From the IMG/VR virus record IMGVR_UViG_3300005613_002514, positions 1-23,380 of that record: 23,380 nucleotides of DNA; one strand, given 5' to 3'. The notes below the pieces were generated by a model. That model was not told where the DNA came from. It did not search any database and saw only the letters and a list, made by a program, of their open reading frames with translations. This document shows positions 13,139 to 19,925 of this stretch, piece by piece (positions within the stretch are counted from its first letter, which is position 1; each line of letters starts with the position of its first letter). Position numbers and translations under genes: made by a program. This DNA comes from a virus.

Positions 13139-13168
13139 GGTATCGAGGGGTTATAATTCCCCGATACC
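13139..13168 (-). terminator. Hairpin on the capsid stop codon, probable weak terminator
   Basis: On the minus strand GGTATCG (13162-13168) pairs with CGATACC (13139-13145). An inner GGG/CCC stem lies next to a small bulge and encloses an AATTATAA loop. The 5' arm is the last codons of the capsid gene and the stop lies in the loop. CTTTCTCT follows, a poor U-tract. The place corresponds to the terminator after gene 10 in T7. It could be a leaky terminator or an mRNA-stabilising or processing hairpin. Confidence 0.6.
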
Positions 13169-14392
13169 TGTGATCCAAGCATGTAATTCTGGTCTGTTAA
13201 AGACTGTAGTATAGCCATTTAACATCATCTTAGACTCATAGTTACCATAAACTGGTAAGTCAATTTCTTTCATCAAGTGGAAGATTTCGATAGAGATATC
13301 TTCTTGGTTAGTATCAACGAACATTGATCTTGAACCTTGAAGAGCCTGTGAAGGGCATAAGTAGAAGTTAAAGCCACCTGCCTTGATAATTTCGATCTCA
13401 CCTGAAATAATTGATCTTTCGCCTCTTTCTGGTACTCCACGAGCTACATCTCTGTTTTGCTCAATTCTACCAAGAGCTTCAAAAGTTTCTTCTAAATCTG
13501 GGTCAATGTAAACTTTACACATATTAGACTTACCAAATTGCCTAGACATTTGACCTCTAACTCTGCCTGCACCTCTGTTTCTTAGTGCATGTGCTAATCT
13601 TGACCAGAATCTAAGAGAAGGAGCTTTGTTAGCTAAATCCTCGGTGTACATATTTTTCTGTAAGCCAAGGGTAATAATTCCACCTGCTCTTTGTCCATCT
13701 GAACCTTGAATTGTTCCATCTGGTGTTAAAGTTGCAGGTGTACCTGATCCTTTTCTACGAGGACCAAAGAAACCTTCAACTTCAAAGTTTAAGAACACAG
13801 AAGGCATTTGCTTTTCTGTTTGGTGTTCAAAAGTAAATTCGTTTACATCTGTAACTATGACATTGTCTTTCATGTCATTAGCAAGACTCATTCTGTAAGA
13901 GAAGTAGCTATTGTAATTGTAGTTTGTACTACCAAAACTAATATCATTTCCTGGGTGTGCATCAGAAGTCATGTCGTCATGTCTACTAATTGTGAAGTTA
14001 GTATCTGCCGCTAAGTTACCATCTGAATAACCTGCCGCTACTTCGACTGTTGCTTCGTTTGTTGCCGCATTGAAAGATTTTAAAACAAATCGACCAGTAC
14101 CAGAACCTGTAACAAATTCTGTTCTTCCTGGGATTAAGTGGTTAGAGTAATCATTAAGCGGATCAGTCTTTAAGACAAGGACACCATCACCAGCGGTATA
14201 AGCTGTCTCTAACTCTACCTTGTTCACTGGGTCTCTATCGCTCGCCCATCTTCTAGTACCTGGCGTGCTTGAAACTACTTTCATATTGTCCATGACAAGT
14301 GGCGTATCGACTCTTGAAGCTGATTGCTTGAGCAAGTCAATAGACTGGACTGTCAGTAGTTGAGATTGATCTTGTTGTAAATTATTAACCAT
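13151..14392 (-). CDS. Major capsid protein
   Basis: This 413-residue protein has the size and character of HK97-fold capsid proteins of podo- and siphoviruses: a Gln/Ser/Leu-rich N-arm (LQQDQSQLLTVQSIDLLKQS), a beta-rich Gly/Thr domain with a probable extended loop (residues 45-130), and a long central helical part with Arg-rich motifs (LRFWSRLAHALRNRGAGRVR). The ending, with FNRPELHAWITGIGEL, is well conserved in style. It is preceded by a Gln/Glu-rich scaffold gene and followed by the connector region, the expected order. The frame extends to a TTG at 14416, but that lies inside a hairpin. I use the ATG at 14392, just after the hairpin. Neither start has a good ribosome binding site, which is odd for the most abundant virion protein. 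The resemblance to SU10-type capsid proteins is from memory and unverified. Confidence 0.85.
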   Translation of the reverse strand: MVNNLQQDQSQLLTVQSIDLLKQSASRVDTPLVMDNMKVVSSTPGTRRWASDRDPVNKVELETAYTAGDGVLVLKTDPLNDYSNHLIPGRTEFVTGSGTGRFVLKSFNAATNEATVEVAAGYSDGNLAADTNFTISRHDDMTSDAHPGNDISFGSTNYNYNSYFSYRMSLANDMKDNVIVTDVNEFTFEHQTEKQMPSVFLNFEVEGFFGPRRKGSGTPATLTPDGTIQGSDGQRAGGIITLGLQKNMYTEDLANKAPSLRFWSRLAHALRNRGAGRVRGQMSRQFGKSNMCKVYIDPDLEETFEALGRIEQNRDVARGVPERGERSIISGEIEIIKAGGFNFYLCPSQALQGSRSMFVDTNQEDISIEIFHLMKEIDLPVYGNYESKMMLNGYTTVFNRPELHAWITGIGEL

Positions 14393-14395
14393 ACT

Positions 14396-14441
14396 CTTAC
14401 ATATAGCACCACACAATCAAACGTGCAATGCTATACGCAAA
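14396..14441 (-). promoter_or_regulatory. 19-bp RNA hairpin directly before the capsid start codon
   Basis: On the minus strand the 19 bases 14441-14423 pair without interruption (G-U pairs allowed, 7 of 19) with 14414-14396, around an 8-base loop. The core TATAGCA/TGCTATA is perfect Watson-Crick. The hairpin fills most of the gap between scaffold and capsid genes and ends 3 bases before the capsid ATG. There is no U-tract, so it is unlikely to be a terminator. It may be an RNase III processing site or a translation-control element. Confidence 0.65.
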
Positions 14442-14456
14442 AGATAAGATTTTTTC

Positions 14457-15200
14457 CTAACGCTGGTTTATTATTTTAAGGGCTTCAGATAAGCTTGTAA
14501 CTTGAGGCTTGGTCTCTTTACTTGGTTGAGTTTTACTAGCGTTACTGTCGAGCCCAGTCTTAATTTTAGAGTTTACTTTGTTTTGTCCAAGGTAGTTATT
14601 AACAAAAGATTGATGTTTAGCAATAATCTGATTAGCTAATTGCGTATTCACTTGTCCTTGCGCTTTAGACTCTACTTCGTTTATGGATTCGTAGTATTTC
14701 AGTTTTATTAAAGCCTGCTTTTCCTCTGGTAGAGTTTTAATTTTATTAGCTAAGTAGTTAGCATCATAATCACTTAACACTGTATTGTAATACTGCTTTT
14801 GTTCTTCCTGTTGTCTTTGATATAAGCTTTGTTGTTTATAGTTATCATACTGTTCCAATTGTTTACGTACAATACTAGCGATATCTGATTCAGTAAACCC
14901 TTCATCTGTATAACCCTGGATATCCTGCTGTGCCTGCGTTTCTTCCTGTGTTGGCATATTTTGTAATTGTCTTTGCTCTTCCTGTTGCCTTTGAATATTT
15001 GCAAGAACCCTGTCTCTAACAGTCTCTTGGATTCTAGCTAGAATTTCGGGGTTGTTTAAGTCATAAGTATCTGGCTCTAACTCTACATTTTGAGCATCAT
15101 CTTCTAGGTTTTCCTCTTGAGGCTCTGCTTCGTTTACCTCTGTTTCTTCTTGAGTGTTTACGACTTCTTGTTCTTCTATATTTGTATTTTCTTCTGACAT
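14457..15200 (-). CDS. Capsid scaffolding protein
   Basis: This 247-residue, highly acidic, Gln-rich protein has an N-terminal 50 residues that are almost all Glu, Asp, Asn and Thr. Residues 55-200 are long helices dense in Gln, Glu, Arg and Tyr (RQQEEQRQLQ, YQRQQEEQKQYY), and the C-terminus is a short basic helix (SLSEALKIINQR). This is the classic pattern of phage scaffolds, whose basic C-terminal helix binds the capsid protein. It lies immediately upstream of the capsid gene and has one of the best ribosome binding sites of the window (AAGGAG, 8 bases before ATG), in line with many copies per procapsid. The function is confident from position and composition although sequence conservation in scaffolds is low. 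Confidence 0.85.
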   Translation of the reverse strand: MSEENTNIEEQEVVNTQEETEVNEAEPQEENLEDDAQNVELEPDTYDLNNPEILARIQETVRDRVLANIQRQQEEQRQLQNMPTQEETQAQQDIQGYTDEGFTESDIASIVRKQLEQYDNYKQQSLYQRQQEEQKQYYNTVLSDYDANYLANKIKTLPEEKQALIKLKYYESINEVESKAQGQVNTQLANQIIAKHQSFVNNYLGQNKVNSKIKTGLDSNASKTQPSKETKPQVTSLSEALKIINQR

Positions 15201-19472: not shown

Positions 19473-19925
19473 ATGATTCATTACCCTGAGTATATTCCAA
19501 AGTTTAATCAAAGTAAAAACAGATTATACCCAAGTGAATCCGAACTTTTAGAAACAAATCCCCATTTAAAGGGAATGTCTACGAAGAAAAGAAAAGAGAT
19601 GCAGAGACATCACATTAATTGTGATCGCCAAGATGGAAGAGCAGAGAATATTCATGTTGTAGATTCTTTAACTCATACCCAGCTACATCAACAGTTACAG
19701 CAGATAATTACTGAATTAATTAAGAAAAATATTATCGGTTATGATCGCAGCGATCCTCATTATTATATTAAAGATGAAAAGCTTTTAGAAAAGTTTGTTA
19801 AACCAAAAGTGGTTAAGGATAATTTTAGAGTTGAGAGAGTAGAAAGGGCAATCGGGAATGCTTTAGCTGAGTTTGATCTTAGACCAACTATCTATACATC
19901 TTGGGATAAAGCTAAAATTGAATAA
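19473..19925 (+). CDS. HNH homing-type endonuclease
   Basis: This is a 150-residue protein and the only rightward gene of the window. It carries the HNH nuclease core around residues 46-75: His46-His47 in MQRHHINCDRQDGR, Asn59 in AENIHVV, and His68/His72 in LTHTQLHQQL. The order (H-H, then N, then H) and spacing fit the ββα-metal family, where the first His activates water and Asn and the last His hold the metal ion. A Lys/Arg-rich N-terminal stretch (KKRKEM) and a Lys-rich C-terminus could bind DNA. Its end overlaps the convergent fibre-companion gene by 14 bases. It is inserted against the main transcription direction in a non-coding gap, which is typical of free-standing homing or morphon endonucleases. 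The ATG has only AGGG four bases before it. Confidence 0.8.
   Translation: MIHYPEYIPKFNQSKNRLYPSESELLETNPHLKGMSTKKRKEMQRHHINCDRQDGRAENIHVVDSLTHTQLHQQLQQIITELIKKNIIGYDRSDPHYYIKDEKLLEKFVKPKVVKDNFRVERVERAIGNALAEFDLRPTIYTSWDKAKIE

Follow-up and report, generated by a model that had tools for sequence, protein, structure and literature searches.

To our knowledge, only a few genes, namely, genes 25 and 38 of phage T4, have a split ribosome-binding site whose function is proven. Long stems also occur between the cistrons of phage mRNAs at the RNase III processing sites of the T7 type, which typically contain an internal loop. In T4 genes 25 and 38, an intercistronic hairpin lies between a distant Shine-Dalgarno (SD) element and the AUG, and its folding shortens the spacing from 27 to 11 nt in gene 25 and from 22 to 5 nt in gene 38, as supported by mutational, reporter, and probing experiments (PMC3014915). 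The gene 25 split site is restricted to close relatives among the T4-type phages (PMC3014915). The locus described here has the same layout, with a lineage-restricted intercistronic hairpin between a distant SD-like element and an AUG, and folding would likewise shorten the spacing. It differs from the T4 sites in that it belongs to an unrelated, uncultured phage, precedes a probable capsid gene, has a hairpin of 50 nt and 22 bp that would reduce the spacing from 62 to 12 nt, and has an SD-like element that overlaps the upstream stop codon.

The window, which is the whole 23,380-base stretch of DNA that was analyzed, is a linear virus record with nearly all of its coding on the - strand. The features at and around the junction between the probable scaffold and capsid genes are as follows, in window coordinates.

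17836-15449, - strand: portal gene (phrog_332 connector match, E 2e-6)
15452-15216, - strand: gene for a 78-aa protein (p78), between portal and scaffold
14457-15200, - strand: gene for the probable scaffold protein, 247 aa, Glu/Gln-rich, with its own normal SD, AAGGAGA
14457-14459, - strand: scaffold stop codon TAG
14455-14458, - strand: AGGA, the nearest plausible SD element for the capsid gene, with a duplex energy of -4.2 kcal/mol
14444-14454, - strand: 11-nt spacer AAAAAUCUUAU between AGGA and the hairpin
14394-14443, - strand: intercistronic RNA hairpin from fold prediction, with 22 uninterrupted pairs and a 6-nt loop (UUUGAU), -27.9 kcal/mol
14390-14392, - strand: ATG of the probable capsid gene
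13151-14392, - strand: gene for the probable major capsid protein, 413 aa, assigned from a weak C-terminal SU10_MCP match and its position after portal, the 78-aa protein, and scaffold
13139-13168, - strand: second hairpin of 10 bp, whose 10-nt loop holds the capsid stop codon TAA; no strong U-tract follows it

Downstream of the capsid gene on the - strand are genes encoding a 188-aa protein (p188), an SU10_adaptor protein (PF24175), and a nozzle-like protein that is about 24% identical to its counterparts in HMO-2011-type podoviruses. A + strand gene at 19473-19925, located amid the late genes, shows a weak HNH match (PF13392, below the cutoff) and perhaps encodes a homing endonuclease. The reading frame of the adaptor gene (12536-11832, - strand) is open upstream of the called TTG start (12470), and extending it to an ATA at 12536-12534 increases PF24175 coverage from profile positions 39-185 to 3-185 and the score from 27.8 to 30.0 bits. 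A strong SD (AGGGGTGAA) precedes this ATA, which overlaps the p188 stop codon and is possibly an AUA start codon or the result of an assembly error. A 14-bp stem (12499-12465, - strand, -19.1 kcal/mol) would be part of the adaptor coding sequence if translation does begin at the upstream start. In addition, a 19-bp hairpin (23296-23255, - strand, -20.1 kcal/mol) and repeats of TAAATATTTACCTATA-like motifs occur in the noncoding region at 23380-23255 (- strand, z = -4.5), which is close to the contig end and may have a regulatory role or represent an origin.

The 413-aa protein is probably the capsid protein on the basis of gene order and a subthreshold match to PF17236 (SU10_MCP), in which it scores 15.9 bits and misses the cutoff of 24.1 bits. 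An hhalign comparison with nine SU10-type capsids recovered the same C-terminal stretch only, at a weak E value of 0.06. The order of portal, a protein of about 78 aa, scaffold, and capsid is common to phiEco32, LUZ24, PhiCHU, Lyrsu03, LAh_8, YP1, and EBPR podovirus 2. A DTP motif seen by eye, which alone is without statistical significance, occupies residues 29 to 31 of the 413-aa protein and residues 30 to 32 of the phiEco32 capsid, and these nearly matching positions suit the ATG at 14392 as the true capsid start. Structure prediction of the capsid from the single sequence yielded a mean pLDDT of 29.9 and no usable fold.

The hairpin consists of 15 Watson-Crick and 7 G-U pairs, spans 50 nt of the 64-nt gap between the scaffold and capsid genes, and has the longest stem in the window. 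Every pair of the stem is predicted with a probability of at least 0.83 in three context lengths. The 64-nt gap is far more stable than its dinucleotide shuffles (z = -7.43), none of 200 being equally stable, and the gap region ranks as the most stable among 11,658 sliding 64-nt windows from both strands. A 22-pair stem was reached in none of 400 Markov sequences of window length, whose longest stems usually had 11 to 14 pairs and never more than 20. The hairpin is strand specific: when folded, the + strand of this region reaches just -9.0 kcal/mol because each G-U pair turns into an A-C mismatch there. By our own estimate, the G-U share is about that expected for random pairing at this base composition, and this share alone is no evidence of selection. 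A DNA-level palindrome or inverted duplication is unlikely, since 7 of the 22 pairs are G-U and would be mismatches in DNA. An earlier note on this DNA had described 19 pairs with an 8-nt loop, ending three bases before the capsid ATG. The hairpin is indeed present, but those 19 pairs are a subset of the 22 and omit two pairs at the base of the stem and a G-U pair at its apex; the loop has 6 nt, and a single nucleotide separates the stem end from the ATG. The 3' arm also includes a start-stop pair, AUG-UAA (14402-14397, - strand), which is preceded by GGUG and lies 4 nt before the capsid AUG. No Rfam family matched above threshold, the match to mir-249 being far below the cutoff. A single 9/12 promoter match was found near the gap (14501-14473), and such matches are no commoner than expected by chance.

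The capsid gene has no good SD at 4 to 10 nt upstream of its ATG, in agreement with the earlier note, and the best candidate nearer the AUG is GGUG, which is located 12 to 13 nt upstream within the 3' arm of the hairpin. Recognizable SDs precede most genes of this phage, with duplex energies of -8.5 kcal/mol for scaffold, -9.0 kcal/mol for p188, and -10.9 kcal/mol for p543. The genes for p78, portal, p182, p95, and p264 are likewise without a good SD, and the p78 and portal starts overlap an upstream stop codon. AGGA lies where the note had placed it, upstream of the hairpin at the scaffold stop, and it overlaps the TAG (14459-14457). The linear distance from AGGA to the ATG is 62 nt, and it decreases to 12 nt when the 50-nt hairpin is folded out; the note's figure of about 16 bases fits the 19-pair version of the stem. 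The note had already pointed out that folding would bring the two elements close, but had not linked this to the T4 gene 25/38 arrangement. The duplex energy of AGGA is similar to those of SDs that other genes of the phage seemingly use, including those of nozzle (-4.5 kcal/mol), IVP (-3.9 kcal/mol), and p277 (-4.0 kcal/mol), which counts for the use of AGGA. AGGA is predicted to be paired with a probability of 0.51 to 0.92, mostly with UCUU of the spacer, in a mini-hairpin of just -1.1 kcal/mol.

Relatives were sought in the viral_contigs collection using the capsid, its C-terminal half, portal, p188, adaptor, and nozzle as queries, along with a profile of nozzle and a degenerate pattern of the hairpin, in the genome_contigs collection using the capsid and a 1553-aa protein, and in the phages collection by tblastn and blastn. 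These protein, profile, nucleotide, and hairpin-pattern searches revealed no close relative of the phage in the three collections, from which very near records may have been withheld. The only relatives came from the nozzle query, which hit HMO-2011-type phages at about 24% identity, and weakly from the adaptor query, and all are too distant for RNA alignment. A set of 38 distinct capsid starts served for comparison with the junction; named phage records supplied 16 of them and IMG/VR loci the other 22, and all are distant. Many of the SU10/LUZ24-type and HMO-2011-type junctions share a short gap before the capsid gene with the window, and the SU10/LUZ24 type also shares its gene order. In contrast to the window, a normal SD is close to the ATG in all 38 comparators (counted for HMO-2011 at the second in-frame ATG, six bases on), and a hairpin between SD and ATG occurs in none of the 38. 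The longest uninterrupted stem listed upstream of a comparator capsid gene has 12 bp (YP1) and is located upstream of the SD; YP1 and LAh_8, which have phiEco32-like capsids, both carry a hairpin in the scaffold-capsid gap in this position. The window is an outlier among the comparator capsid starts. Because the comparators are distant, the missing hairpin shows only that it is not common to the wider group. In the marine phage Octadecabacter Antarctic DB virus 2, an 18-bp stem (2204-2249, -24.3 kcal/mol) includes the gp4 start codon in its 3' arm. Another record, "Microcystis phage MaAM05" (MW495066, 1-29458), carries tRNA, ftsH, lepA, proS, and other bacterial genes around phage-like structural genes and resembles a prophage-containing bacterial contig.

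The hairpin is a real, strand-specific, and unusual RNA structure, which would most simply be read as a known translational device in enlarged form. The earlier note had offered either an RNase III site or a structure that sets the scaffold-to-capsid ratio. A functional structure at the RNA level is well supported by the stability, strand specificity, and position of the hairpin and by its outlier status among the 38 comparator capsid starts, and the sequence does not decide between the functions. We tentatively rank first a split, or "accommodated," ribosome-binding site as in T4 genes 25 and 38. The hairpin would then act in cis within a polycistronic late mRNA and set the initiation of capsid translation. 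The 30S subunit would pair with AGGA where the scaffold gene stops; folding of the 50-nt hairpin out of the path would shorten the distance to the capsid AUG from 62 to 12 nt, with the folded form presumably the active one; and initiation would occur at that AUG, probably linked to ribosomes finishing the scaffold gene. Capsid synthesis would thereby be coupled to scaffold synthesis. The split-site reading is favored by the position of the hairpin, exactly between the capsid AUG and AGGA, the one SD-like element close by that is not part of the stem. AGGA is too distant from the AUG in the linear RNA, and a stable hairpin would reduce the spacing to one close to that of T4 gene 25 (12 versus 11 nt). 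The lineage restriction of the T4-type split site also matches the absence of the hairpin from distant relatives. On the other side, AGGA is a weak element with a predicted pairing of 51 to 92%, a 12-nt spacing is long, the hairpin spans roughly three times as much as those of T4, and the capsid AUG is partly paired in longer folds. Since a few other genes of this phage are also SD poor, the capsid gene may simply start without an SD. Bypassing of the T4 gene 60 type was rejected: the last scaffold codon, CGT, occurs again within the hairpin, where its frame leads to a stop and not into the capsid frame.

If the hairpin is instead a substrate for host RNase III, which we rank a close second but still consider somewhat unlikely, cutting near the middle of the stem would part the scaffold mRNA from that of the capsid and give the latter a short leader. 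Together with the hairpin at the stop codon, this would delimit the capsid cistron as a unit that decays on its own. RNase III needs at least two helical turns (PMC2956633), which the uninterrupted 22-bp duplex provides. The intercistronic location and the presence of hairpins at both ends of the capsid gene also fit such processing, as do an annotated terminator after the capsid gene in LUZ24 and a hairpin there in HTVC115P. The stem resembles the T7-type sites in its length and its place between cistrons; unlike them, it is uninterrupted, has no internal loop, and lies 1 nt from a start codon. Moreover, a cut would strip AGGA and leave an SD-less leader of about 13 nt, which is odd for a protein that is presumably highly made. 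Because cutting parts AGGA from the AUG, the split-site and RNase III readings predict opposite effects of removing RNase III.

A hairpin that stabilizes or regulates the mRNA, as a 5'-end protector, a block to 3' exonucleases, or a binding site for a phage protein (such as scaffold or capsid feedback on their ratio), with neither a spacing nor an RNase III role, is in our view less probable again. A strong stem at a cistron boundary, the 10-bp hairpin around the capsid stop codon, and the YP1 and LAh_8 gap hairpins upstream of the SD would all suit it, but no further copy of the motif was seen, no Rfam family matched above threshold, and a protective hairpin need neither adjoin the AUG nor occupy the SD position. 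We give little credence to a chance or nonfunctional structure: a G-U share of 7/22 is about what we estimate for random pairing, and the searches of the three collections revealed no conservation, but the simulations (0/400 at 22 pairs), the z score of -7.4, the top rank among 11,658 windows, and the location in a gap adjoining the start codon all speak against it. An intrinsic terminator or attenuator between scaffold and capsid is very improbable; it would account for a strong intercistronic stem, but the sequence after the stem (UAUGGUUAAU) has no U-tract, the hairpin is absent from the terminator scan, and termination here would cut off the capsid gene.

Capsid production in this phage is thus probably controlled through RNA structure, in a manner resembling that of two T4 genes. 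A stronger version, which we regard as doubtful, is that the normal capsid SD was lost and replaced by a 22-bp folding bridge over 62 nt, such that the capsid gene is translated mainly by ribosomes that have just completed scaffold and the ratio of the two proteins is fixed by RNA structure. Should the hairpin turn out to be an RNase III site, it would be a routine though clean example of one. If it is a split site, its 62-nt extent in front of a capsid gene would reveal the distance over which structured RNA can be bridged by a ribosome. It would also represent a simple RNA means of tying capsid output to scaffold output, the ratio of which is important in phage assembly.
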